From Heliocidaris erythrogramma (lineage: Eukaryota > Echinodermata > Echinoidea > Camarodonta > Echinometridae): a stretch of 64,000 nt of DNA. The stretch is from assembly GCA_025617745.1 (NCBI GenBank), contig CM046870.1:6821618-6885617 (forward strand), read 5' to 3'. Every line of letters begins with the position of its first letter. Position 1 is the first letter of the stretch. The notes beneath the pieces are model-generated. The model was not told where the DNA came from. It saw only the letters and a list, made by a program, of their open reading frames with translations, and did not search any database. A program made the position numbers and the translations under genes. This document shows positions 2,496-59,939 of the stretch, piece by piece.

Positions 2496-5400
2496 CTGCA
2501 TTCAGAGAGTATGGATGAAAGGCTAATTTAAAAACTGAATGCTTTCGAGACAAACTGACCACATATTTTGTGGTTTGGCGCAATAACTTTTGATTCAGAG
2601 CCTTGAAAAATATATCAGATGCAGGAGTAGAAAGAGCAAAAATTTCTGCACACAGTGTGTCCATTTTTGTTGCATGATCATATGGTGTTTAATGTCGGGA
2701 AATAAAAAAAACAGAATAAGCTTTAAAATCCTTAAATTGGCAACACATCGAGAAGTTAAAAATCATTGTTTTTTTAATCCAAATTGGCATCTTTTCAACA
2801 AAGTTCCTAACCAGCACTATGAACACGATGACAAAGAGAGCGGACAAAATATACAGCTCCTCATTGTACCCTCCACAATTGCTCTGGTAGACAAAAGAAC
2901 ATCCCTTCATTACTATTATGTAAAATAAGCAGAACAGGTGAATATGCGTGTGACACCAGTTCTACATATTTTTACATAATAGCAATGAAGGGATGTTCTT
3001 TTGTCTACCAGGGCAATTGTGGAAGGTACAATGAGGAGCTGTATATTTTGTCCGCTTCTTTGTTCGCCATGTTCATAGTGCAGGTATGTTTTGAAAGGCA
3101 TTAAATTTCATTAGAACCATGTAGCATTCAAAGAAAAATATGATTGTTGCTAATATGAAGATCAAAATATGATCATTTTTTCCCTTAAATATTTCCTGTC
3201 CTGAAAGGGTAATGTAACCAAAAACTACACCCTGCAATCCAAGGGATGAATTACACAGATACAAAGATAAACCGCCTAAAAAACAAAAACAAATTAAAAA
3301 TGAAATGAAGTGCAGTGCATTCCACATTGCCGTATCTCATAACACATGTACAAGTAAGTATATTTAGGAGCCTTGGTTGTGCAGAACTTTTCTGTTGCAC
3401 ATCAATTTCACATTCATTTGAACATAAAATGGCATTCATTTTGCCGAGGCATTTTTTTAGCCAATTTACTGTGTTATGTGTGATGAAGAAGGTGGAGTTC
3501 TGGTAAATGTGACATAATTTGTAAGCTTTCTCATTCTTTTTTGCCACTCTCCACCCAGGTGTAGTAAATGGGTACCTGGCAGGATTTATTCCTTGAAATG
3601 CACTTGCGCTGATTACGGCTGCCGGAGCTAAAGCCAGGGTAATAATATCCAAACCCTTTGGAAGTGCATAGAGACGTATGTATCATAACGTGTTATGCGC
3701 CATACAAGAACGGAATATTATCTTAATTATTATTTTTATGTTAGTTTGCAAGCATACCATGTAGTAGATATTTCCCATGAAAAGTATTGCTCTTCAATTT
3801 TCCAGGTATATTTGAAATCTAACGAGAAATAGCTGACAAGCTTGGACCAAACCTTCATGCCAAACATGTGTATAGTCCCATATACACATTTCTGGGTGCA
3901 GTGCATGTGAATTTCGGCAAGATTGAGCAAAGTTCTTATCATTTTGAGGATTCCCAAACCTCACAGTGTACACCAATTTGTATGTATTGCATAATCAACC
4001 TTTCCCCAATTGCTTCCAGACAGTTTCTTTCACAATATATCACATGACCAGAACTTAAAGGGAGCGACAAGTCGCAATCTATGGGTGGTTTACAGTTGGC
4101 TGCTCCTTTCTCTGGATCAAAGTTCAAAGCGACTTTAATTTATCGCGCGCAGCTAATAAAAGTTCGCACATTGACCCAAATTTTATTAACAAGATCGCAC
4201 ATTCTTTATTCCAGTATTTGAATCTCATTGGTCGGTTACGTATGTAGGGATTCGAGTTAACGATCACGCAAGGAATTCGGCAATAACATTCCTTCGGTAG
4301 CGCACGATTGGACCCGATTGTATCCAAATTTCCCCCGAGTCAGGCCAACTGGTCAGGCCCATGGATTACGACTTCCCACTCCCTTTAACCTTTGGCAAAA
4401 AAAGAAGTTGTATTGGAGTAACGGCCCATAGAATATAGGGTAGGTACATGTAGGTTGATTTTTTTTTTAAATCCTGAGAAACAGGATATTTGTACTCGCA
4501 GAGCCTGCAGTGAACGTTCTTAAAATATTTGTACACGAAACAGAACACATGGGCTCAAGTAAAAAGAATCAAAAATCTGCAGAAAAGAAGCGAAAGTAGT
4601 TAAACTTTAATAAAAATAGACCTAAATATGAGGGAAAGAACCCAAAGTAGCAAAACTGGTGTAAAACGATAGCGATTGTAAAAAACGATATCTTAACACT
4701 GCGCTATCATGACTGTGAATATATTTTATTGAAATGTTTAGGTCAGGGGTAATTATGGCGCAGATAATCTATGAAGATTGAAGAGCGCCGTCAAGCTCAA
4801 CAACAACAACAATTATTAGGGTAGGTTGCATTACGCCAATACAACTTTTTTTCTCTTTGCCTTATTATTCTTCAATGGGTTGCATCGCGGTAACACTTAC
4901 CAACCAAAGGTTGTGTACAACTGTCTATGATCGGTTGAATCTCAATGACCTCCTCACCAGTAACGGTAATCTTCTTCTTCTTTCCTCGGTTCCCTTTATT
5001 ACGAGAGCCTTTGACAACATCCTCTGCAGAAAGATAACAAGCATTAATGCATGAGACACCAGGGGCCCGTTTCATAAAACTTGTCATCAATGACAAGTTG
5101 CAATAACTGTTATAAGCTACTGAAATCCTTGCATCTGATTGACCGAGAGCAAATTTGTCAGTAAAAATCACCGACAAGACACTTGATGAAACACCCCCCA
5201 GGTAATGAAATGGTTCATGGTTATGCTGCGGTCAGACTCTCATGTATAGGCTAGCTGTAAGCACCATGTAAGTGCCACGATTTGCGAGTAGACATGGCCG
5301 CGACCCCCCTTTTAAAACTCTACTGGCATACCTCAAGTACACAATCAAAAAAAATTGCTTCCTTAATTAATTGTGTACTTTTCCAGCTCTGTGCCCCCTT

Positions 5401-8400
5401 TTACAAAATCCTGGATCTGCCCCTGTACTTGCATAAAATTACCATAACTGATGCAACTGTCAAAGGCATTGATTCCTATTTTGGGAAAACTAAAAACTAA
5501 GAAACTAAAAAAAAAAAAAAATGGTTTCTCTCTCTTGAAGTCTTACAACAGGAAGGCAGTCATTAGCCATGTCAAGTTCCATTCGGTGTTAATCATCACC
5601 TTGTGTTTCTCATATTTGTATACAAACATTAAAACTGTACCATGAAGCATATTCTTCATACTACAATTCTATTGCTTTTAAAACTTTCATCATTCTGTGC
5701 ACATTATGGTATTACATCCCTGTCACACCAGCATATTTTACACCTGATGGCCTGTTTTCTGCACAAACAGAAAACCTGACACTCAGAGCTGCCAACCTCT
5801 GACCAGAATTTTCCGTACACGAAAAGCTGAAAAATTTTGCTGATGAAATCCGTTTTTTTTTTTTTTTGCAAGTCACCAAATACCAAATTTTTAAACTGTA
5901 ACTGCCGATAAAATTGTTATTACATGTAGATCTAAAAATGTCCTGGAATTACTCTTTATGACATCCCAATAATTATTATTGCGAATAGGATAATGATCTA
6001 GATCTAGAAACATAAAAAAACAGCTAAAACTCACATTCCATATTCATCCTTTCGATTTCACGTCTACGGCGCGGCTCTACATACTGCCACCTTGCACCAA
6101 GCGGGCTAGGCTGGCCGGCTTCGCCTAATGCCTCAGTGTGTAAGAGCAGCTGCACCACTGAACTCTATATGTATGGAGTTCAGCGAGCCACACCGCTTGC
6201 GCTTGAGCTAGTTAGTTTGCATGTGCGTTGAAAGTACAAGTGTGTGTACGTTCGCAGTCTCTGTTCTGTACGCACTTTAAGTACATACACAGTGCGGAGT
6301 TCCGGGAACGGTGAAAATAATACAACAGGAGTGTGAAATTTTGAGTGATAACAAATACATAAGCGCAACGTACATGTATAGGGCCAATAGTGCATAATCA
6401 GATTTCTTCAAATCCGTAATTTTAGAGGGGAAATCTGTACTTCCGTATTTGTGTTTGAATTCCGTAATAATTACGGAAAATCCATACTGGTTGGCAGCTC
6501 TGTACACTGGTTCGATTTATAAGTCGAGTTTTAACAAAGGAAATGAGACTGAGGTCAACATGACTTTACACAGAGCGTCAGGTTTAACTGAATGATTGGA
6601 ATAACAGTCGATGTGTTCTCATGGTGATCAAACTTACTGAGGACTCTGGAAGGTTTCTTTTCTAAAAAACCTTCCAGAAATGCTCATTGTGCATCATCAG
6701 TGTCTTTATGAAGTTCACATTTCATTTATGCTGTTCTTACAGCATCCTATACCATCTGCTGAGATGCAGAAGGGCGTTAAAATATATCCTAAAGCACAGT
6801 GTTAACATCCTTCTGGCTCTCAACAAACAATTTACACACGCACCATTTAATCTCCAGCCTTTTAGAAACCAAGTGCACAGCATTTATAAGCGCCAACTGC
6901 AACATGTTCCAATTTCTACCTTTTCATAATCAAGTGAATTATGTTTTAATGGAAGACTGGCTGCTGTGAAGGCTGAGTGAATAACTTCTGGAATCGTAAG
7001 GCATCAAGAACAGAACTCACTTGACTATGAATAAATGAGGTATTAATAATAAACGATGGCTTGTCTAGCAACAGTATCCACCCATTCTTCAGGCCACCAT
7101 GGCTCCTGGCTCAAGTACTTTACATAATTTGATGCAAAACTGGATAAAAGATTGATGTAATCACCTAACTTGATATGGACTTTTTTCATCACTTCAGAAA
7201 AATGAACTCTTTTCAGAAGCTATACAGGTCCTTCAAGTTAATTGCCTTTTCAAAGTCTCGCCTCTTACACGGCTCTCGATCAATGTCTGATTTGGGTTGC
7301 CAGCTAAGCAAGCCAGAAGATTGCTAAGGTGGTCATTTAAAATTAACAGTTAACTGCCAAAAATTCACATGAAATAACAAGACTTTTTTTTTTGAGATTT
7401 GGACAACAAAGCCATGATTTTACGGCTGCCCCGCAGGATTCTAGGTGGTCAATGGCACCCTGAGAACTGCCGATTTCAACCCTGGATGAGAAACTTGAGC
7501 ACAGAAATCAACCCAGTTCAAGTGACCATTACACTTGACCACGAGGGATTTCTGAACTCTACTTACCACCTTTCTTTTGACGCTCTATGTTCTGTTAAGG
7601 AGGAAGGAGAAAGAGAGAAAATTCATGAGCACACGGAACATTTAAAGAGCATTACTCCAAAGTAAAACAAGCTTACAACTGGCAGTTATTAAACTGAAAT
7701 AGCAGCAAGAATATTTTTTGCCACGACCCCAGTTACAGAACTGAGTGCTGTTTTACAATGAAGCCTGGAAATTTCATTTAGCTGACAGTAAAGCATTGTT
7801 GATCCTCTACAAAGGAATTTGGTCATTTATTGATAACAATAATAACAGCAATATTGTATATTGCCATCAAAACTGTTAAAAATTTCACGCTACCGCAGAA
7901 TGTGTTTCTTTGTTGAAATGCAGTGTTTTTTCCATCAATATCCTGAAGGAATGATGGATTGTTTTCATCTCAGATTGAGAACACTTGCATGCAACTCTTT
8001 ACATGTATGTATTCAATTCAGTTCCAGTTGTCTATAAGAAGCAGATTTGTATCTCAGTAAGAAACATCAAGAATATTACCATGAGTGAGAGCTGAGATTT
8101 CTTATTAGTTAACAAGAAATATCAGCTCCACAAAGTATTCACATCATATTCAACTTCTGTAAACCTTACAGAAAACACCAACAGCTAACTAAGAAAAGTT
8201 TGTTCAAATGATGACATTATGCCGATTAATTTCATCTTCCATACTGGAGAAAAAAGTTTTAACTGTTGAGAGAAAATTGATACTTCTAAATAAAAATTTT
8301 CAAAATATTACACATTTTATTATAATAACATCATATAAACTCATTCCTTTTTTGAAAGAAAGGACAATAATGAAATATTCAACTTTGTACTTTGTAATTG

Positions 8401-32063: not shown

Positions 32064-33582
32064 ATGTTAAATCAAGATCCGATAGCTCCTCAAGAGCAGC
32101 CCCAACAATTGACGGCTGCTGTTGTGGGTGAAACCGTCAAGGAAGCAGTTCATTCATTGAAGGAGTACTTTGATGCCTCGATTTCTAGCCTGAAAGACGA
32201 GAACGAGAAGAAGCTAGCGGTGACTTCTCACGAGTTGCAACATATCAAGAGGTCAACGGAGACATCCTTTAAATTTAAAGGAAACCGGGATCAATTTGAG
32301 TTCAATTCTTCTCTATTGGAGAGGCTGGAGTCCGCCGATTCTCTTCTTGGTCAGGGTAAGCAAATTCGTGCGAAAGAGGTCATTTCGGAGGCTGTAGCGG
32401 AGTTAAAAAAGCGGAACAAGCATATTCGCCTTGCGGACAAGTCAGAAGCAGGTTAGTTGGTGGTTGTGCCGGGTTTTAGTTAAATAATATGATCAAGTAT
32501 GTTTTGATAACTATTATAATGATGAAAACGCTGCATATCGGCAGACAAAATGTTCTTTGTCCATCAAGTATTCTTAAAATTGTATAACTGAGGGCATTGA
32601 TGAAGATTATTTTATTCATTATGCTATACTAGCAGGTTGGACGGAAATTTAAGAATATATTAGTGATGACTTGGATTCACACAGCATTCTTAAATATGTA
32701 GTTCATGAAATGCATTCACGGGCATTCGTGTGTTCATTGCTTGTTGTGTTGGCAGCGGCCTGGGAATGTATTGGTGAATTGGACTCAAACAATAGACCTC
32801 TTCACGGGTGTGTTCGTGTTTCGTGCATGGTCTATCAAAAAGTCTAGTTACCAGAAATATTTTCATTTGTAAGCATGTTTTACTTGTTGCTATGTTGGGC
32901 AAGCTTAATTGCCCATATCTCGGGCAAGCCATGATGGTGTCAGAGAGACCCTTCTGTGAAAAATATCCATACTATTGAATACATTGTGAAATGGTCTATT
33001 TTTGAACATTTTCAAAAATGGGTAATTAGGGGCATTCACGAACATTCGTAACATTCACTTATCTTTAAGTTGATAGCAGTACAAGAATATATTAATGATG
33101 GGTATCAAACAATTATTGAGCTTTCTTAAAAATGTGTCATTTAGGGCATTCACGTTAATCCCTTTATTCATAATACTATATCGTTAGGTTGGAAAGCAGT
33201 GGAAGAATATATTAGTGATGACTTGGCTTCAGACTCGGAGGATGAAAAGCGCATCCGCCAAGCCCAAGCCCGGGCCACTAAGAAGCGTAGTGGCAAGTAC
33301 AAGCACCAGTCGTCATCCCCCAGGCCCAAACGCACCCGTTTCATGGATCGTGCTGGTTCTTTTATTGATCATAACCCCTCTGGGTTTCGTGGCTCAAATC
33401 AACCACGTAGTAGATATGCGGTTGGGTATAACCAACACAATTCAGCCTGGCAAGGGTGGTCAGCAGCCGTTGGCCCTAGACCGAACGACCTCTGTTTTGC
33501 TTGCGGCAGAGCCGGGCACTGGAGGAGAAATTGCCCAGGACAAAAACAAACATATAACAAAGGTAGCAGCAACCAAATCTAG
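32064..33582 (+). CDS. Ngaro Gag, two exons joined across 32452-33187
   Basis: Exon 1 (32064-32451) begins at ATG (MLNQDPIAPQEQPQQL) and ends GAAGCAG/GTTAGT. Exon 2 (33188-33582) follows the acceptor TCGTTAG and continues GWKAVEEYISDD in phase. The N-terminal half is helical and charged (SLKEYFDASISSLKDENEKK; FKFKGNRDQFEFNSSLLERL). The C-terminal half is basic (KKRSGKYKHQSSSPRPKRTR) and ends in a CCHC zinc knuckle (CFACGRAGHWRRNC). Gag would package the element RNA. The 736-bp intron holds a decayed duplicate of the exon 2 start. The pol frame overlaps the end in the +1 frame. Confidence 0.75.
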
Positions 33583-33589
33583 CAGCCAC

Positions 33590-36500
33590 GCTAGAGTTAG
33601 TGGTGATTTGTATTTTTCTAATGCAGACTCAAATTCTAACTCCAATTGTCAAATATCAATGGAATCTTGTATTACAGGCAACTACAGCGAAGTGAGTGAT
33701 AGACATCACACATCCACCTGTGCGACAGGAATGCTCAATTCAGGGTATGACCTAGAATTCTTTAAGAACAATTATTATGAATATGAAAAAGGGAATTCAG
33801 AGCCTATTGTGAAAGGCAGACTTCGGAATTCTTTGAAATTCTGGAACGACATTGGCGCATCATCTTTTGTTTGTAGTGTGATACAATCGGGTTACAAATT
33901 ACCATTTATTCAGACTCCACAAACAGGTTTTTTCAAGAATAATAAATCTGCCTTGTCACACTCATCTTTTGTTTCAGAGGCAATAATTGATTTACTTAAC
34001 AAAGGTTTGGTTGTCGAATGTTTTAATGTGCCACACGTTGTTAACCCCCTTTCGGTATCGATACAAAGCTCGGGTAAAAAGCGCTTAATTCTCGATTTAA
34101 GATTTGTAAACCAGTTTCTTTGGAAAGAGAAAGTTCAATTTGAAGATTGGAATGTGGCACTAGGTTATTTTAAACAAGGTGATTATCTTTTCACCTTTGA
34201 CCTCAAATCTGGATATCACCATATCGAAATGTTTCCGCAACATACGAAGTTTCTCAGTTTTGCATGGGATTTTGGACACGGTATCAGGTACTTTTCATTT
34301 CAGGTGTTGCCGTTTGGGTTATCCACAGCGCCATTTGTTTTTACAAAATGTCTCAGACCACTAGTGAAGCACTGGCGGTCAAAGGGTATATTTATAGTTT
34401 TATTTCTAGATGATGGATGGGGCAGAGCGCATTCTGAAGACTTATGTGAACAAGTTGCAAAAAGTGTGAAGGCTGATCTTTTGTCAGCTGGGTTTGTTCC
34501 TAATAAAGAAAAGTCTCATTGGATCCCTGTACAGGTTATAGATTGGCTCGGACTGACCTGGAATAGTATTGAAGGTTCCCTTAAAGTTACTGAAAAACGA
34601 GCTGGAGATTTACTTAAATGTATCGAAGCATTTCAAACAACTCTACCTAAAGTTTCCGCAAGGCAAATAGCCTCCTTAACTGGTAAAATTATATCCCTCA
34701 CCCCTGTGGTTGGTGCTATTTCGCAATTGAAATCTCGATTTATGCACCATGAAATAATTAATAGAACTCATTGGGATAAGGTGTATACTTTACAGAGTGA
34801 TAGCAAAGTAATTGAAGTTTTCTTTTGGAAAAGTCAATTTGTTTCGCTTAACAAACGTATGCTTTTTGTTTATTCTGTTCCACAAATCATTGTATTTTCT
34901 GATGCAAGTCAAACGGGTTGTGGAGCGTGGGCATCAGAATGTGGAAACATGAAATTCCAGAGAAACTGGAGTCCGGAAGAAAGTATTAAGAGTTCCATTT
35001 GGAGGGAATTAAAGGCTGTGAGTCTTTCGGTGCGAGCATTTTGCCCAAAATTGAACGGTAAAATAGTGAAGATATTCACTGATAACAAGGGTGTAGTGTC
35101 GGTTATTGCCAAGGGAAGCATGATTTCTGATTTACACAAATTAAGTCTAGATATATTCAATTTCTGTTGGCATAACCAAATCTTACTCCAAGTAGCATGG
35201 GTTCCAAGAGAACAGAATATGTTGGCTGATGAAATAAGCCGAGAAGTTGATTTCGACGATTGGGGCGTTTCCGAAGAATTTTTTCAATTTATCGACAGCA
35301 TATGGGGACCCCATTCTGTAGACAGGTTTGCCGATGAGCACAATACTAAATTACCCATATTTAACTCCAAGTTTTGGTGTCCGAATTCAAGTGGAGTAGA
35401 TGCATTTTCCTATAATTGGAAAGGTGAAAACAATTGGTTAGTGCCCCCTATCAACAGAGTCGGAGATGTTTTAATGCATTTGAAAGCTTGCAACGCTGTA
35501 GGTACTTTAGTTATACCAGAATGGACATCTGCCCCCTTCTGGCCGCTCTTAAATTCTCAATACAGCGGGTTTAATGACCTGGTTTCCAATGTGATCAGAT
35601 TCCATGACCCCAGTTACATTTTTGTCCAGGGGCGTAATCGAAAGTCTATTTTTGGATCACTGACATTTTCAAGCCCTGTATTGTGCTTGAGATTAAGGCG
35701 GAAAGTTGATAGGTATTAAGAATTATACCAGAATCTTTTGATTTCCAGTATATTAATATATACAAATTAATTTGTGCCCAGGAACATAACAAAAATGTAT
35801 AAGACAGAGTCGGCCGTATGGCGACAGAGAGTCGGCCGTATGGCGACAGAGACTCAGCCGGATGGCTAGGTAGATTCTGCCGTATGGCGAGATAGAATCC
35901 ACCGTATGGTAAATAGAAGGCGACAGAGACTCGGCCGGATGGTTCGGTAGATTCTGCCGTGTGGCGACATAGAATCCACCGTATGGTAAATAGAAAGTGT
36001 TGGGTGGCTACTTAACACATCCTTGCTGTGAAATATGTTCATTTGCATATAAAAATTGATAAGGCTGTTTCGCCTGTTTTATAATTGCTATCAATTTCAA
36101 CTGGGTTAACCAATAAATGCCTGATGAGCCAGGAATCGAGCTAAATGAATAATTTCAGCCAATTATACAATGATATCGTATACATTCTAGTAGAGAAACT
36201 GTAATGATGTTTTCATCGGTAATTAACCATTTTTGTACTTTACAGATCCTCTCATAGTGAAGGATATGATGCACTTTTGGCGGAGGTACTTGCCGCATCA
36301 AGAGCTGAGAAAACTGTCTATAAGTACGATCGAGCATTTGCAAATTGGGAGAAATGGTCTCAACGTAACATGGTAACCCAAGTCCCTGCTAGCCATGAGG
36401 ACATTAGTCGATATTTTATGTACCTTTATCAAGAAAAATCTCCGTACTCTAGAATCGAGTCGAGTTTTTATGCCATCAAATGGCATTATGATTGTAATCC

Positions 36501-37221
36501 TGTGATTTCTAATAATCCATGTGACACTAGATTTTTACATATTGTTCTTCAAGGTCTGAAAAAATTATTACACAAACCTATAGTTAAAAAAGATCCAGTA
36601 ACACTAACACCCGACAATTTGAGAGCTATTGTGGCAAAATATGGTGCATCTGATAATCTAATTGATATTACATTATGTACTATGATTTTATTAGCATACG
36701 CGGGTTTTTTCCGCCATGATGAGCTCATTAACATTCGTAGATGTGACCTGCAAATGTGTATATCCTATGTGAATATCTTTGTAAGTAAAAGTAAGACCGA
36801 TATATTCAGACAAGGTCATTGGGTTCTAGTTGGCGCCACAGGAACCCCAACATGCCCGGTTTCGGCTTTAAGAAGATATCTAAATGCAGCCGAGTTGAAT
36901 TCTGATACAGATGAGGATTTCATATTTAGACCGCTTAATTACCATAAATCCAGTAATTCACATACACTACGTTCTGGTAAATTATCCTACACCAGGTGTT
37001 TAGAATTGTTCAAAAGTGCTATTGCGTCCATAGGTTTAAACCCCAAGAAGTTTGGTTTACATAGCCTCCGTAGTGGTGGAGCATCTGCTGCGGCTACAAT
37101 TGGCGTACCAGACAGATTGTTTAAAAAACATGGCAGGTGGAGATCTGAGACGGCTAAAGATGGCTATATCCAGGATAGCATGGAAGACAGATTATCGGTA
37201 TCGCTCAAATTGGGTATTTGA
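33590..37221 (+). CDS. Ngaro Pol: reverse transcriptase, RNase H and, by splicing, tyrosine recombinase
   Basis: The reverse transcriptase/RNase H frame is open to 35719 and lies +1 relative to Gag. Blocks: KKRLILDLRFVNQFLW, LFTFDLKSGYHHIEM, FQVLPFGLSTAPFVFTK and FIVLFLDDGWG (LDD catalytic motif), then RNase H with VFSDASQTGCGAW, IWRELKAVSL and IFTDNKGVVSVI. A donor GATAG/GTATTA at 35712/35713 and acceptor TACTTTACAG at 36245 would remove 533 bp and the stop, fusing KVDR to SSHSEGYDALLAEV of the recombinase in phase. How pol is started (frameshift, reinitiation or another splice) is not shown. Confidence 0.75.
35820..35995 (+). repeat. Short tandem repeats in the Ngaro pol intron
   Basis: GAGTCGGCCGTATGGCGACA and GATTCTGCCGTATGGCGA-type units recur about seven times, ending with two copies of GAATCCACCGTATGGTAAAT. 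They lie wholly within the predicted intron 35713-36245. Confidence 0.7.
36246..37221 (+). CDS. Tyrosine recombinase exon of the Ngaro element
   Basis: About 325 residues. The N-terminal core-binding part includes KTVYKYDRAFANWEKW and the catalytic part carries the first Arg in LAYAGFFRHDELI, HSLRSGG (H-x-x-R), KKHGRWRS (His in HGRW) and the nucleophile candidate Tyr in DGYIQDS. All expected catalytic positions are present. It integrates the circular cDNA in this retrotransposon class. No ATG lies near the domain start; the splice to pol explains this better than separate initiation. Confidence 0.85.
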
Positions 37222-44300: not shown

Positions 44301-44438
44301 TTTCTTAGTTGGTTTCTTAGTTGGATTCGGCGGTAGAGCTTTCGAAGGATGTCTTACTAGTTATATGAATTCCCACTCATCTCTCAAATCTATTTCACAT
44401 AGTCTGTTGTGTACGAAGTGCAGGAGCTAAAAAGTATA

Positions 44439-47400
44439 TCTTACAATATAATACACTAAGGATTTCGGGCTCTTTTTTTGGTTCAAATAGGCTCCTCCCC
44501 TGGCCCTTTCGGTCCCCGCCTTTTGGTACCCACGGGTGGGGAAGGGTTCTTAGGGTGGTGGGAGGCACTTCTTGAGGGATGACGTCCCGTCCATATTTCA
44601 TAAATTCATTTTTAAACATTGAATTTCCGCAGGGAGTAGGCCTAATAATTCCACCAACCCATGAAGCGGGTTTGTAGCTTCAGGCCCAGCCAACCCATAT
44701 ACCTTTCCCTGTGAAGGGGAGCTATGCCAAAGAACAGCATGGCCATATATCCGCATGGCTTCAGTGTACAGTACAGTATTATACACACGTGTTAGATCGT
44801 TCGCACGTACGTGTACAGGTCATCATACAGGTATAGAGTTACATCATTTGAAGCGTCATGGTCACACACACAGTTTAGTGTGTATGTTTCGCTACCGGTA
44901 ATTTGACAAGAAGACAATTCCTTCGAAAATATTTCCATAATGATTATGAATACGTATAATGATATTAATCCCTTCTCCCCTCGCCCTGGGGGTGATGGGA
45001 TGACAATGGAATGGGGGAGCTGGAGGGGGGGGGGGGGGGGGGGGGTAGTAGGGGGGAAGTCAATCCGTCGGTCCTCCCAAGACCCATATAAGGGGGCCAT
45101 AATCCCCCTGAAAATAAAATGACAAATTCATTTTTTCTCATTATTGCATCCTTTACAGGGGACGTACCGCTATAAGGCGGGGAAAACAAGTGCAGGTTTG
45201 TCAACTTTTGGAAAAGGCAGACCTGGGGGGGGGGGGGTGGGCGAGAATTTTGTTTTCGTCAGACCTAGAAAATTCGCTCAGGAGGGGGTGGTTATGGGGG
45301 TCCCTCCATAATTCTCTGACAAGCAAAAAAAAGAAGGTTTCATTCTAAAAGGGGGCGGGGGCACAATCAACAAAAGGGCGGATCGTCTATGGTCAAAATG
45401 CATACTTTCCTGCCATTGAACGGGGGGGGGGGGTGGGGATGGCACGGGCCAGAAGCACCCCTCCCCCCCCCCGGCCCCCGGTCCGCCAATGGACATGTTG
45501 TAAATACTTTTTGGTAAAAATAACTTTACCCGACTTTTTTATTTATTCACTTGATTATTGTAACAAATATACGGTACGGTGATTAATCATAAACACAGCT
45601 AGCGCCCGTGGATGTCCACGGGCTGCTTCTGCTAGTTATAATATAATACACTAAGGATTTCGGGCTCTTTTTTGGTTCAAATAGGCTCCTCCCCTGGCCC
45701 TTTCGGTCCCCGCCTTTTGGTACCCACGGATGGGGAAGGGTTCTTAGGGTGGTGGGAGGCACTTCTTGAGGGCTGACGTCCCGTCCATATTTCATAAATT
45801 CATTTTTAAACATTGAATTTCCGCAGGGAGTAGGCCTAATAATTCCACCAACCCATGAAGCGGGTTTGTAGCTTCAGGCCCAGCCAACCCATATACCTTT
45901 CCCTGTGAAGGGGAGCTATGCCAAAGAACAGCATGGCCATATATCCGCATGGCTTCAGTGTACAGTACAGTATTATACACACGTGTTAGATCGTTCGCAC
46001 GTACGTGTACAGGTCATCCATCATACAGGTATAGAGTTACATCATTTGAAGCTTCATGGTCACACACACAGTTTAGTGTGTATGTTTCACGACGTTCGCT
46101 ACCGGTAATTTGACACTTTATCAGAAAATCTGATAAGAAAATTCCTTCGAAAATATTTCCATAATGATTATGAATACGTATAATGATATTAATCCCTTCT
46201 CCCCTCGCCCTGGGGGTGATGGGATGACAATGGAATGGGGGAGCTGGAGGGGGGGGGGGGGGGTAGTAGGGGGAAGTCAATCCGTCGGTCCTCCCAAGAC
46301 CCATATAAGGGGGCCATAATCCCCCTGAAAATAAAATTACAAATTCATTTTTTCTCATTATTGCATCCTTTACAGGGAACGTACCGCTAATTATGGATGT
46401 TACTCTGAGTATTAATAAACCACAGAAACATGGCAAGATCAAATCGCTCCCTCTAGGTCTATGCATGGATATTCTACTCGAACATTATTATATCCATATC
46501 ATCAATTTTCATCAAGATTAAAAGGAATTTTCTTCAGAACTCATGCAAGCTTTGGATAATAAGACATATTCACATAATAAGGGGCGGATCCAGAATTTAG
46601 TATAAGGCGGGGAAAACAAGTGCAGGTTTGTCAACTTTTGGAAAAGGCAGACCTGGGGGGGGGGGGGGTGGGCGAGAATTTTGTTTTCATCAGACCTAGA
46701 AAATTCGCTCAGGAGGGGGTGCTTATGGGGGTCCCTCCATAATTCTCTGACAAGCAAAGAAAAGAAGGTTTCATTCTAAAAGGGGGCGGGGGCACAATCA
46801 ACAAAAGGGCGGATCGTCTATGGTCAAAATGCATACTTTCCTGCCATTGAACGGGGGGGGGGGAGGGGGTGGGGATGGCACGGGCCAGAAGCACCCCTCC
46901 CCCCCCCCCCCCCTCCCCGGCCCCCGGGTCCGCCAATGGACATGTTGTAAATACTTCTTGGTAAAAATAACTTTACCCGACTTTTTATTTATTCACTTGA
47001 TTATTGTAACAAATATACGGTACGGTGATTAATCATAAACACAGCTAGCGCCCGTGGATGTCCACGGGCTGCTTCTGCTAGTTATAATATAATACACTAA
47101 GGATTTCGGGCTCTTTTTTGGTTCAAATAGGCTCCTCCCCTGGCCCTTTCGGTCCCCGCCTTTTGGTACCCACGGATGGGGAAGGGTTCTTAGGGTGGTG
47201 GGAGGCACTTCTTGAGGGCTGACGTCCCGTCCATATTTCATAAATTCATTTTTAAACATTGAATTTCCGCAGGGAGTAGGCCTAATAATTCCACCAACCC
47301 ATGAAGCGGGTTTGTAGCTTCAGGCCCAGCCAACCCATATACCTTTCCCTGTGAAGGGGAGCTATGCCAAAGAACAGCATGGCCATATATCCGCATGGCT

Positions 47401-49877
47401 TCAGTGTACAGTACAGTATTATACACACGTGTTAGATCGTTCGCACGTATACGTGTACAGGTCATCATACAGGTATAGAGTTACATCATTTGAAGCGTCA
47501 TGGTCACACACACAGTTTAGTGTGTATGTTTCGCTACCGTAATTTGACAAGAAGAAAATTCCTTCGAAAATATTTCCATAATGATTATGAATACGTATAA
47601 TGATATTAATCCCTTCTCCCTTCGCCCTAGGGGTGAGGGGATGACAATGGAATGGGGGGAGCTGGAGGGGGGGGGGGGGGGGGTAGTAGGGGGGAAGTCA
47701 ATCCGTCGGTCCTGCCAAGACCCATATAATCCCCATGAAAATAAAATGACAAATTCATTTTTTCTCATTATTGCATCCTTTACAGGGGACGTACCGCTAA
47801 TTATGGATGTTACTCTGAGTATTAATAAACCACAGAAACATGGCAAGATCAAATCGCTCCCTCTCGGTCTATGCATGGATATTCTACTCGAACATTATTA
47901 TATCCATAATTTATCATCAATTTTCATCAAGATTAAAAGGAATTTTCTTCAGAACTCATGCAAGCTTTGGATAAATAAGACATATTCACATGATCAGGGG
48001 CGGATCCAGAATTTAGTATAAGGCGGGGAAAACAAGTGCAGGTTTGTCAACTTTTGGAAAAGGCAGACCTGGGGGGGGGGGGGGGGGAGTGGCGAGAATT
48101 TTGTTTTTCATCAGACTTAGAAAATTCGCCCAGGAGGGGGTGGTTATATGGGGGTCCCTCCATAATTCTCTGACAAGCAAAAAAAGAAGGTTTCATTCTA
48201 AAAGGGGGCGGGGGCACAATCAACAAAAGGGCGGATCGTCTATGATCAAAATGCATACTTTCCTGCCATTGAACGGGGGGGGGGGGGGGTGGGGATGGCA
48301 CGGGCCAGAAGCACCCCCCGGGTCCGCCAATGGACATGTTGTAAATACTTCTTGGTAAAAATAACTTTACCCGACTTTTTTATTTATTCACTTGATTATT
48401 GTAACAAATATACGGTACGGTGATTAATCATAAACACAGCTAGCGCCCGTGGATGTCCACGGGCTGCTTCTGCTAGTTATAATATAATACACTAAGGATT
48501 TCGGGCTCTTTTTTTGGTTCAAATAGGCTCCTCCCCTGGCCCTTTCGGTCCCCGCCTTTTGGTACCCACGGGTGGGGAAGGGTTCTTAGGGTGGTGGGAG
48601 GCACTTCTTGAGGGCTGACGTCCCGTCCATATTTCATAAATTCATTTTTAAACATTGAATTTCCGCAGGGAGTAGGCCTAATAATTCCACCAACCCATGA
48701 AGCGGGTTTGTAGCTTCAGGCCCAGCCAACCCATATACCTTTCCCTGTGAAGGGGAGCTATGCCAAAGAACAGCATGGCCATATATCCGCATGGCTTCAG
48801 TGTACAGTACAGTATTATACACACGTGTTAGATCGTTCGCACGTACGTGTACAGGTCATCATACAGGTATAGAGTTACATCATTTGAAGCGTCATGGTCA
48901 CACACACAGTTTAGTGTGTATGTTTCGCTACCGGTAATTTGACAAGAAGAAAATTCCTTCGAAAATATTTCCATAATGATTATGAATACGTATAATGATA
49001 TTAATCCCTTCTCCCTTCGCCCTAGGGGTGAGGGGATGACAATGGAATGGGGGGGCTGGAGGGGGGGGGGGGGGGGGGGGAGGGTAGTAGGGGGGAAGTC
49101 AATCCGTCGGTCCTGCCAAGACCCATATAATCCCCATGAAAATAAAATGACAAATTCATTTTTTCTCATTATTGCATCCTTTACAGGGGACGTACCGCTA
49201 ATTATGGATGTTACTCTGAGTATTAATAAACCACAGAAACATGGCAAGATCAAATCGCTCCCTCTCGGTCTATGCATGGATATTCTACTCGAACATTATT
49301 ATATCCATAATTTATCATCAATTTTCATCAAGATTAAAAGGAATTTTCTTCAGAACTCATGCAAGCTTTGGATAAATAAGACATATTCACATGATCAGGG
49401 GCGGATCCAGAATTTAGTATAAGGCGGGGAAAACAAGTGCAGGTTTGTCAACTTTTGGAAAAGGCAGACCTGGGGGGGGGGGGGAGTGGCGAGAATTTTT
49501 TTTTCATCAGACTTAGAAAATTCGCTCAGGAGGGGGTGGTTATATGGGGGTCCCTCCATAATTCTCTGACAAGCAAAAAAAGAAGGTTTCATTCTAAAAG
49601 GTGGCGGGGGCACAATCAACAAAAGGGCGGATCGTCTATGATCAAAATGCATACTTTCCTGCCATTGAACGGGGGGGGGGGGGGGGGGGGTGGGGATGTC
49701 ACGGGCCAGAAGCACCCCCCGGGTCCGCCAATGGACATGTTGTAAATACTTCTTGGTAAAAATAACTTTACCCGACTTTTTTATTTATTCACTTGATTAT
49801 TGTAACAAATATACGGTACGGTGATTAATCATAAACACAGCTAGCGCCCGTGGATGTCCACGGGCTGCTTTTGCTAG
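44439..49877 (+). mobile_element. Head-to-tail array of four non-autonomous Helitron-like units
   Basis: Units are 44439-45635, 45636-47081, 47082-48476 and 48477-49877. Each ends in a hairpin (GCCCGTGGATGTCCACGGGC) followed by 8 bases and CTAG, the 3' structure of Helitrons. The array starts with TC (44439-44440), has A before it and T after it, matching Helitron insertion between A and T. The internal junctions read CTAG/TTATAATA. Units are very similar except for G-run lengths and a deletion of about 240 bp in unit 1. All open frames here recur in each unit and show no known domain. Confidence 0.75.
45608..45635 (+). terminator. Helitron-type 3' hairpin and CTAG end (unit 1)
   Basis: Perfect stem GCCCGTGGA/TCCACGGGC with a 2-base loop, 8-base spacer TGCTTCTG, then CTAG. 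Repeated at the ends of the other three units (47081, 48476, 49877). This is the rolling-circle termination signal in the Helitron model. Confidence 0.65.
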
Positions 49878-50172
49878 TATATATATACAATGCGAAAGGA
49901 AATGAGAGAATAATGGTTGCGTAACTTAAATCAAAGTTCCCCAGAGCTGTCCTCCCTTTTTGAAATTTTTGCAAAGGCTGAAACCACTAACCCGTCTCCG
50001 TGGTCTAGTGGTTAAGGCATTGGCGTTCTAAGCCAAGGACCCGGGTTCGATTCCCGGCGGAGACATTTTTTCAGCCTTTGCAAAAATTTCAAAAAGGGAG
50101 GACTGCTCTGGGGAACTTTGATTTAAGTTACGCAACCATTATTCTCTCATTTCCTTTCGCATTGTATATATA
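49878..50172. mobile_element. Palindromic element carrying a tRNA gene
   Basis: Arms of about 105 bp (TATATATATACAATGCGAAA... and ...TTTCGCATTGTATATATA) are near-perfect inverted copies and surround the tRNA with a few bases to spare. The innermost arm sequence is TTGCAAAGGCTGAAA/TTTCAGCCTTTGCAA. The left end abuts the Helitron array exactly. Confidence 0.8.
49994..50065 (+). tRNA. tRNA-Arg (anticodon TCT)
   Basis: A faultless cloverleaf: acceptor GTCTCCG/CGGAGAC, D stem GTCT/AGGC, anticodon arm TTGGC-GTTCTAA-GCCAA (anticodon TCT), 4-base variable loop, T arm CCGGG-TTCGATT-CCCGG, discriminator A, followed at once by TTTTTT as terminator. It lies in the loop of a long inverted repeat, so it may be a mobile copy rather than a standard gene. 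Confidence 0.88.
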
Positions 50173-50217
50173 TTTCCACGAGAGTTGCCAAAGCTGTTGT
50201 ATATGTTATTTCCTCAC

Positions 50218-57360: not shown

Positions 57361-58377
57361 CTAGGGTTGGTTGTCCCATGGTGGTACTGCCAGTCCGGGG
57401 GAAATTCTTCTGATGCGGTTTACTTTATGACCCATCATTCTGATGAGGACGCTGCGATATGATTTATTCATGATCACATAGACGCAGGCATTCCACCAGC
57501 TGTTTGAAGTGATAGCATACCTTAGGAAAAGAGTGAGGATGGGTGGAATCTTGATCCCAGGAATGGGGCTCAGAAATAAAACGATGGTACGTGGTAACCA
57601 AGCTAGATAAAACATGCAGGTTATTACCAGGACGGTCTTAAGCCCTTTCATTCCCGCTCCGCTTGGCGGTATCAGGGCGATGTTACCGGCGTTAACTGCG
57701 GCTTCCAGAACGGCGATTTGACGCGCATGGTGACGCGCTATACGCAAGAGTCGCACATTCACGAAGGTGGTGATCACAACTGCGGTAAAAGGGATGATGT
57801 TGTAGATGATGTAGCTAGGTTTGATAAGTGACAGGCAGATCCTAGATCCGTATGGATGACAAACACCTGTCAGCACGCTCTGTAGATAAGATCCACCTGA
57901 ATTAAGGAGGGGAAGAATCATCACCGCGGTCAAGGCACCGATCATTCGCTTGCGGGAAGCGAGCGCGTGATATTGAAGGGGTCGGGTTACTGCGATGTAG
58001 CGATCGACGGACGCTAAAGTCAAAATCCACATTGATTGCAACACAAAGGCAGTACACAGAATAACAATAGTGTCACTGTAGATTTGGGGAATGGATATGA
58101 GGACAAAAATCACGCCAGAAGTCGAACATAACAAGCCAGTGAAAAGATCAACGAAAGAGAGGCACATGAGACATAGTTTAGTGTTGTCACCAAAACAATT
58201 TTTAACTCGCGGAACGGTTACGATGTTGACACAGTTTAGAAGAATTGTAAGAGCAGCGTTGATAGAATAACCGTAAAGCAAGAAGTCTTTCTCCTTCTTT
58301 GAAAACGTATAATGCTGAGGAATCATTTCATCGCTAGTGTTTGAATAATCGGCGTATAGTGTAGTAGGACCATCCAT
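57361..58377 (-). CDS. Class A (rhodopsin-like) G-protein-coupled receptor, intronless
   Basis: A 338-residue frame with seven hydrophobic segments (about 33-55, 67-90, 102-124, 144-166, 187-211, 246-268, 278-302). N13 lies in an NTS glycosylation site. Class A marks: LSFVDLFTG with Asp77 in helix 2, C108 in helix 3 and C173/C181 in loop 2, DRYIAV at 125-130, IIPF Pro in helix 5 and YLAWLP in helix 6. Helix 7 has NACVY in place of NPxxY. The C-terminal tail is short and basic. Ligand unknown. Intronless class A receptors of this kind are common in large invertebrate families. The start ATG is the first in frame and gives a normal N-terminus. Confidence 0.88.
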   Translation of the reverse strand: MDGPTTLYADYSNTSDEMIPQHYTFSKKEKDFLLYGYSINAALTILLNCVNIVTVPRVKNCFGDNTKLCLMCLSFVDLFTGLLCSTSGVIFVLISIPQIYSDTIVILCTAFVLQSMWILTLASVDRYIAVTRPLQYHALASRKRMIGALTAVMILPLLNSGGSYLQSVLTGVCHPYGSRICLSLIKPSYIIYNIIPFTAVVITTFVNVRLLRIARHHARQIAVLEAAVNAGNIALIPPSGAGMKGLKTVLVITCMFYLAWLPRTIVLFLSPIPGIKIPPILTLFLRYAITSNSWWNACVYVIMNKSYRSVLIRMMGHKVNRIRRISPGLAVPPWDNQP

Positions 58378-59939
58378 TTTAAAATATTTTGAGGCTAGCT
58401 TACAGTGTCTCGTAAATTAAAAAAAAAATAGCAGTTTTAATGATGTTCAAATGACACTGCTTGATTTAGATTCAATATATTCAGTCAGATTCGAAGTGTA
58501 TTTGTCGTGCACAAAATAAAATTGAGTGGCATAAAACCATTCTCTGGCTGTCTCTGTAAAATAGTGTCAATGTGCCTATTAAAACTTTATCCAGTAGGAT
58601 CATGCAATCTTGTAAGCACTTGGTGAAAATCATTTCTTTAATGACTCCAGCAAACTTGTGAATGATTTCTTTTATACAACCGAAGAGATTAAGAACAATA
58701 CTAAGTATATGACGGGCGAGACCGCACCATCGATCGCGACAGGATTCTGCCATTCCCGTTCCCGTACGACATGTAGGACGCGACTGCCAACATTTCATCG
58801 TCTGCGGCAATAATTAATTTGTCCCAGCTCAAACAGAGACATGATGCATAATGCCTGTGGCCAATCTCGTTTAGGCGCAGCAAGGACTTTGTCTTAATAA
58901 CAATCAGCACGGAAAATAAGAGAAGCCTCATGTGACGTGAGCTCGATAACTTTCAAGCCCGTCAGACTGTCAGTCATATGAAATCCTTGCTTATTATTAT
59001 CAAAAATCCTTGCTCATACAAAACAAAACATAAAAAATCATAACAAAGAAATCTTTCGAAGACTATTTTTTTGTTTGTTTGTAATAAACTTAATGAACTT
59101 AATTTTCGAATGAAACAAAATCTTTCAGATTATTCTATGCTTGTGTATTTTATTGTGTTACCTATTCTTTATGTATTTCGATATTTAGTTTTCATCTATC
59201 CCATCGTTTTGTTATCGCATTGTTTTGTTATTTTTGCCCTTCGATAATCTCAAATATCACAAAGAAAATACAGTACAATTCTCAATTTGTTTTGTTATTT
59301 TTGCCCTTCGAGAATCTCAAATATCAGAAAGAAAATTCATTACAATTTTCAATTTGTTTGTTTGTTGTGGGTTTTTTTGGGAAAAAATCCATAAATTCTA
59401 CATGGGTGGGGCTGGCTGGCGGGAGGGGGTGATATGAATTACAAATATCGTTAACTCGGTGTTAAAGGATGCGTAAAGTCCGTTGAACACGTTGCGTCAT
59501 TTCAAATGCGTTATTATACCTGCGTTAATCAATCTGTTTTCATTTTTATTTTTCATTTATTTATCTATTTTTTTAAATCTCATTTAATTTTCATTTTTCA
59601 TTTTTTTTTTTTTTTTTTTTTTTTGGGGGGGGGGGGGGGTATGCATGTCACTCTCACATGGCGCGTCAAAAACTGCGCTAGTCGCCGACGCTGTCCTGCG
59701 TCAGCAGAATAACGATCCGTGTGTAAAGGGCATTAGATTCATACGAGATTTCAAAATGAAGATTACTCCCAAAAATAAGGGGGCATTAGACCCCCTTCTC
59801 CTGCCTTAAAGGGTGCTCCGACATGTGCTCTGGCGACAATAAATTCTTCCTGACTTGATTTCGTCAAAGATTTGGTGTTAGGTTTAGGGTTGTAACGAGT
59901 TGTAACTGTGACTCTTTTGCACCTGCCGAGAGGGTGATG
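58378..59939. other. Upstream of the receptor gene: no gene recognised
   Basis: May include the receptor 5' UTR and promoter; no motif decides the start site. A near-duplicate pair (59220-59280 and 59289-59355, GTTATTTTTGCCCTTCGA) and a T-run followed by a G-run (59603-59638) are present. Confidence 0.4.

Follow-up and report, generated by a model that had tools for sequence, protein, structure and literature searches.

How does a genome come to hold four copies of one transposable element head to tail, with no base between them? The question is raised by positions 44439 to 49877 of a 64,000-nucleotide stretch of the echinoid Heliocidaris erythrogramma (GenBank assembly GCA_025617745.1, contig CM046870.1, forward-strand positions 6,821,618 to 6,885,617), here called the window. 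The array is real, of Helitron type and of a known kind. A sequence-only reading had attributed it to continued rolling-circle replication past the 3' signal or to reinsertion at the T that follows CTAG. Comparison with other copies of the family leads us to a different explanation, which in its full stepwise form we hold to be moderately probable: the array would be a stack of non-autonomous, canonical-type Helitrons that was later multiplied and reshuffled by recombination.

The array and its Helitron ends

Four direct units on the forward strand fill the interval, namely unit 1 (44439-45635, 1197 bp), unit 2 (45636-47081, 1446 bp), unit 3 (47082-48476, 1395 bp) and unit 4 (48477-49877, 1401 bp), with identities of 97.8-99.3% between units in an ungapped comparison. 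Each ends in GCCCGTGGA-TG-TCCACGGGC, a hairpin with a stem of 9 bp and a loop of 2 bases, followed by eight bases and CTAG; the hairpin scan placed these ends at 45604-45635, 47050-47081, 48445-48476 and, with the TGCTTTTG variant, 49846-49877. Unit 1, the sole unit with a 5' TC, starts with TCTTACAATATAATACAC after the host A at 44438, while unit 4 is directly followed by T49878, which with the adjoining TA-rich target (49878-49887) belongs to the host. Units 2 to 4 start with TTATAATATAATACAC immediately past the CTAG of the unit before. The three joints (45632-45651, 47078-47097 and 48473-48492) are identical, lack any spacer and read CTAG/TTATAATATAATACAC, with two bases (TC or CT) gone relative to a TCTTATAAT start. 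The units, their ends, the initial TC and the flanking A and T are thus all present at 44438-49878 as the sequence-only reading described them, and the shortfall of two bases at the internal junctions, TTATAATATAATACAC in units 2 to 4 against TCTTACAATATAATACAC in unit 1, was correctly noticed. Its word "perfect" stands for the absence of spacers but not for the rest: unit 1 lacks about 220 bp, and the joints differ from the exact CTAG/TC form found at 44 of 65 joints genome-wide. The stretch missing from unit 1 has TA at its edges and is found in unit 3 and in the ten copies aligned with unit 3. Scanning the whole 64-kb window for a perfect hairpin followed by CTRR yielded the four array ends plus one more on the plus strand and two unrelated matches on the minus strand, compared with 0-2 matches in each of 20 random Markov-1 sequences scanned on one strand.

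The same ends define a large family. The exact hairpin-CTAG 3' end occurs 1,196 times (592+604) in the 1.06-Gb genome of 26 contigs, and a query with the 128-base 3' end gave 1,383 first-look candidates, the best 40 of which were scored. All 51 of the 3' ends compared are followed by T (50 CTAG, 1 CTGG; 13 of them are tandem joints), and the first 13 bases downstream of the 38 non-tandem 3' ends are strongly AT-rich. Of 39 5' ends, 28 have A in front of TC, one has C and six, all of them tandem joints, have G, with four ends unscored; A therefore precedes TC at 28 of the 29 scorable non-tandem ends once the six G and four unscored ends are set aside, although the copies at C3:2.03 and 2.21 Mb have a common flank and are not independent. 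With start points assigned from the 5' motif, TC is present in unit 1 and, among 24 further copies in the alignment, in 23, of which 17 share the register of unit 1 and six have a TCTATAAT start that is one base shorter; it is absent from units 2-4 and from copy 50a. These flanks and termini, together with the 3' hairpin followed by CTRR in four of four array units, carry on sequence grounds the marks of a canonical Helitron and bear out the Helitron-like identity first proposed. Helentron/HINE elements (Helitron2) insert between T and T and have no CTRR end, and this identity was ruled out by the A^T flanks and the CTAG ends.

In its TC start, near-3' hairpin and CTAG end, the family resembles canonical Helitrons (Helitron1), such as Helibat/Helraiser of Myotis as described in PMC4778049; it differs in that the internal joints of the array lack TC and that no transposase was found in the array units. 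Five of the six open reading frames (ORFs) of the units had no match in Pfam and the sixth gave a chance-level match below the cut-off (E 0.027), and since none matches a protein family above the cut-off, the units look non-autonomous. The genome contains 103 Helitron_like_N matches. The best Rep-helicase ORF (C5:36622131) was not retained as the demonstrated partner, as the 1.4 kb around and past its stop contain no such hairpin-CTAG. Another match, C2:37162078, has a family 5' end some 5.9 kb upstream of it in the same orientation, which is a lead only.

Joints between neighbouring copies across the genome

Tandem placement is widespread in this genome. A pattern of TGCTAG, 0-20 bases and then a 5' end matched 65 places (26+39) and the reversed pattern none, so the placement is not due to chance. 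The joints, at least 65 in number, are distributed over 53 loci, of which 43 hold pairs, 8 hold triples and 2 hold quadruples; counts from exact patterns are minimum values throughout, and the total does not include any joints to a further subtype, ATATATTACGC. Single copies with other end positions, which the sequence-only reading had named as contrary evidence, did not appear, a weak test since our searches were anchored on the known ends. Forty-four joints are exact CTAG/TC without spacer, 10 have an altered start and 11 contain a spacer of 1-14 bases, which is TA-rich in several cases. Three of the 10 altered starts are those of the window array, all CTAG/TTATAAT. Loss of TC at joints occurs beyond the window as well, since the joint at C12:25353958 reads CTAG/TATAATATAAT, a type-2-like start likewise without TC, and the joints of loci L035 and L036 to another subtype read CTAG/TATATATATATTACGC or similar, also without TC; the exact window form is unique among the 65.

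Exact hits on resident 5' edges appear to be far more frequent than expected. A rough estimate, based on 38 sites and the window and on insertions that follow the AT preference seen there, predicts fewer than 0.4 such hits for up to 4,000 insertions. Canonical starts preceded by A or G number 676 for types 1 and 3 and 116 for type 2, and 5' edges in joints make up 21 of the 116 type-2 starts versus 23 of the 676 others (Fisher p = 6e-8). Because the non-tandem copies examined obey the A^T rule, the simplest reading would place each new insertion between the A and T found at a resident's 5' edge. Reinsertion at the T after CTAG, the second origin that had been suggested, would use G^T, whereas non-tandem copies use A^T; the likelier site is therefore the 5' edge of the resident, made up of the host A and the first T of the element. 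The idea of insertion at a 5' edge is not new, having already been published for one maize pair in PMC2267711, a paper that also names the A/T insertion rule of Helitrons. There, two different elements in the r1 region of B73 meet at a CTAG/TC joint and are read as consecutive insertions, and in one of the options given the target is the A/T formed by the host A and the first T of the resident. That account concerns a single pair of unresolved order, whereas H. erythrogramma offers 65 joints and an array with a modified joint and mosaic units.

The subtypes of the joined units help to distinguish these origins. Subtype rows were read by eye from the joint list and two listings of 5' starts, and upstream typing covers the first 100 of the 676 type-1+3 places and the first 100 of the 116 type-2 places; C15:41985602, C17:17321926 and C19:25882042 were left out for altered upstream starts. 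Among the matches listed, 15 exact joints could be typed, seven of which unite different subtypes and eight the same subtype. The stretch from C1 to C3:7.19 Mb is fully covered by both 5'-end listings and has eight joints, seven of them with an upstream start that can be identified: six are exact (four of different and two of the same subtype), and the seventh, with a 3-base spacer, is of the same subtype. Within the listed type-2 range, 16 exact joints have a type-2 unit downstream, and an exact type-2 start lies upstream in four and is absent in 12; a binomial calculation for these 16 assumed 88% detection (7/8), and two of the four same-type joints (C8:44.66 Mb and C8:44.74 Mb) may represent one event, present in two copies. 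Joints between different subtypes cannot be made by one rolling circle, so that separate insertions are the better fit for seven or more of the typed joints outside the window. Nor, to judge from derived alleles, does the same subtype imply sister copies: the exact neighbours 46a and 46b, of one subtype, carry 19 and 11 derived alleles with none in common, while the different-subtype neighbours 31a and 31b carry 9 and 25 with one in common.

Tandem Helitron insertions are listed for Myotis, Drosophila, rice and maize in PMC5148889, and data-mined tandem arrays from plant and bat genomes are reported in PMC5876387, where they are cited as support for rolling-circle transposition. The present joints resemble those arrays in their head-to-tail units without spacers. 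They differ in that seven of the 15 typed exact joints unite different subtypes; since this is about half, such joints alone do not prove a rolling circle. Dozens of joints in one genome make the two origins separable directly, and resident copies appear to be targeted by elements of their own family. That the transposase aims at their 5' edges is something we infer from these data. As a general statement, it is a tentative but quite conceivable view that the Helitron machinery prefers the 5' edges of its own resident copies and that stacks are largely serial, self-targeted insertions, some of them multiplied by recombination; on this view the edge would be preferred because it offers a valid A^T target and, at the same time, a sequence that the transposase already recognises.

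Two further loci deserve mention. An apparent array of about five units lies at G000:C19:25876848-25884879, its pieces 94% to 74% identical to unit 4. At L050, two opposed copies (5761-5868 on the plus strand and 4156-4262 on the minus strand) show about 102 bp of the 5' end and then a second, TC-less start, which is another kind of doubled 5' end.

Two lineages, apparent mosaics and the probable growth of the array

Within the window array, the relationships among the units do not follow their order. When copies were ranked by score against unit 2, unit 2 itself came first and units 3 and 4 only at ranks 35 and 36 of the best 40 scored, so that 33 other scored copies, 31 of them on other contigs, surpassed both. 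Ranked against unit 4, and again among the best 40 scored, unit 3 was nearest and unit 2 stood at rank 22. Units 2 and 4 are on this sequence evidence taken as representatives of distinct lineages, designated C and R; unit 2 is ancestral in the middle, and unit 4 adjoins the right flank and has a relative at a duplicate locus, L052. Units 1 and 3 appear to be mosaics of these lineages. Unit 1 has R alleles (a substitution and two deletions) at 44855-44910 and is C-like from 44980 on, and unit 3 is C-like up to 47176 and R-like from 47497. This comparison skipped three stretches of G or C runs and the columns of the large deletion in unit 1, and its discordant sites are a CpG site and several private changes of single units. 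Units 3 and 4 have many changes in common that are not in units 1 and 2, and a double deletion of 9+17 bp is present in units 1, 3 and 4 but not in unit 2; as an exact pattern it occurs genome-wide only in units 1 and 4, unit 3 lacking one further base. The mosaics and the confinement of the double deletion to the array indicate that sequence most likely moved between units within the array.

An earlier idea that the array units are each other's sole close relatives was rejected, as ungapped and masked comparisons place the family at similar distances; the initial BLAST result (about 98% within the array, about 90-93% for the best full-length outside copies) was an effect of G runs and indels. 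We likewise rejected the idea that the array units have no allele in common, which is contradicted by a G in a T run that is discussed below. Four of 28 non-window rows were dropped from the allele comparison ('15', '18' and '19' as same-locus duplicates, '50c' as a rearranged unit), and later comparisons were also made without '50d' (other subtype).

The internal joints point in the same direction as the mosaics. Among the 53 loci, CTAG/TTATAAT is confined to this array, where it occurs three times. A single origin followed by copying is therefore probable, and the copying most likely took place, to judge from the sequences, in the same way, by movement between units. That every unit of the array is a separate insertion at the 5' edge of the preceding unit, with TC lost independently or via conversion, is improbable on this ground. 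A good share of the other joints in the genome fit such a scheme and an equivalent reading was proposed for the maize pair (PMC2267711), but TTATAAT starts not preceded by C are rare (12 places in the genome, three of them in the array, versus the 676 and 116 canonical starts), which makes three independent cases improbable, and several units have array-private deletions in common.

A single rolling-circle event, by read-through past the 3' signal or from a multimeric circle with a TC-less joint, would have inserted all units together, with divergence and conversion afterwards. We regard this as unlikely, though it deserves to be weighed. It accounts well for three identical joints of a form found nowhere else among the 53 loci and for the rare G allele in units 1-3 and in L052, and for Helraiser, circular forms in which the two Helitron ends are joined have been documented (PMC4778049). 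Those circles, as described there, join TC precisely to CTAG, unlike the window joints. Moreover, the many changes of units 3 and 4 are not in units 1 and 2, and the deletion tract of unit 1 resembles that of units 3 and 4, not that of unit 2, and is absent from L052, so that at least the last growth step probably took place after the founding. A four-unit concatemer made in one step at the window is thus unlikely on the sequence pattern; the two lineages and the mosaics would speak against four units at once from one copy, while the rare allele allows a common founding dimer. Continued rolling-circle replication, as originally suggested, leaves unexplained four units of two lineages with mosaics and the mixed-subtype joints elsewhere; the bases absent from the joints may still, as was also suggested, record how the joining took place.

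The duplicate locus bears on the timing. Both array flanks were found 1.4 kb apart at C18:7333392-7335077. L052 holds a 5'-truncated copy that meets the right flank of the array at the same 3' junction; the 415 bp to its left match nothing in the window. In a comparison that left out the middle part, inside the stretch absent from unit 1, the L052 copy has two derived alleles in common with units 3 and 4 that are absent from 23 other copies, one of which is kept under a stricter mask. It lacks the double deletion and most of the R changes, and the mosaics of units 1 and 3 therefore probably postdate the duplication of the locus. A query of the joined flanks, with the best 40 of 794 candidates scored, never matched across the join as an empty site would, and at this locus A^T insertion without target duplication is supported by both ends alone.

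The preferred explanation, a stack of insertions later reworked by recombination, can be set out in three steps. First, an element would insert between A and T in AT-rich DNA, giving A/TC at its 5' edge and CTAG/T at its 3' edge, as the copies examined display. Second, the A and T at the 5' edge of the resident would provide a valid target, which many loci suggest is hit far above expectation; the later element would then lie exactly upstream of the older one, a head-to-tail pair without read-through. Third, a stage at the window with lineages C and R would have gained one joint lacking two bases, and unequal exchange and/or gene conversion would have copied this joint and produced the mosaic units 1 and 3, resulting in four units. 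The traces of the third step are visible as a sequence pattern, from which we infer the pathway. The founding pair might go back to a second insertion or to a rolling-circle dimer with an imprecise joint.

Several observations weigh against this explanation. The same-subtype cases among the typed exact joints (8 of 15) could also be obtained from concatemers. Age order is not uniform: the subtype order is 1 to 2 four times and 2 to 1 three times, the units of L032, L033+ and L046 are about equal in age, and the more diverged unit lies upstream at C20:9563171 and in the second joint at C15:41.98 Mb. The downstream unit is clearly older in five pairs (L031, L033-, the second L035 joint, L036 and L050-), which came from a search biased toward young upstream units; age order thus does not fix the direction of insertion. 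Two 5' ends that are not among the listed joints, at C2:16921242 and C8:40785196, have G before them and may represent either decayed joints or insertions at G^T. The rankings that separate the lineages scored the best 40 of 3,588 or 4,003 candidates. The G in the T run is common to units 1, 2 and 3 and to L052; the allele is found at 11 places in the genome, four of them here, with T in 16 of 16 scorable other copies. An allele this rare suggests that C and R go back to one founder, which weakens the claim that they are unrelated insertions and speaks more for an initial dimer, made by rolling circle or by duplication, or for conversion at a later time. We found no simple sequence of unequal crossovers that yields the units in their exact order, and because the L052 copy is truncated on its 5' side, upstream units may have existed there. 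Finally, unit number and mosaicism come from one assembly. An assembly or haplotype artefact, with an inflated number of units or merged alleles, is nevertheless very improbable: lineages C and R could be alleles and a repetitive, G-rich region might invite such errors, but private indels distinguish the units, yet the joints are identical, and the genome is assembled in long contigs (26).

Neighbouring features

Directly 3' of the array, a 105-bp inverted repeat of 99% identity (49879-50173) holds a tRNA-Arg(TCT) gene in its loop (49994-50065). Among the matches listed, its arm recurs at 99-100% in more than 30 genome rows, and 23 rows repeat part of the loop including the first part of the tRNA, mostly inverse to the arm; the repeat seems to represent a foldback element family carrying the tRNA gene. 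Upstream, adjoining ORFs at 33188-37221 with reverse transcriptase and tyrosine-recombinase (Phage_integrase) matches resemble a DIRS-type retroelement, and the minus strand at 57361-58416 contains a single-exon ORF of a rhodopsin-family G-protein-coupled receptor.

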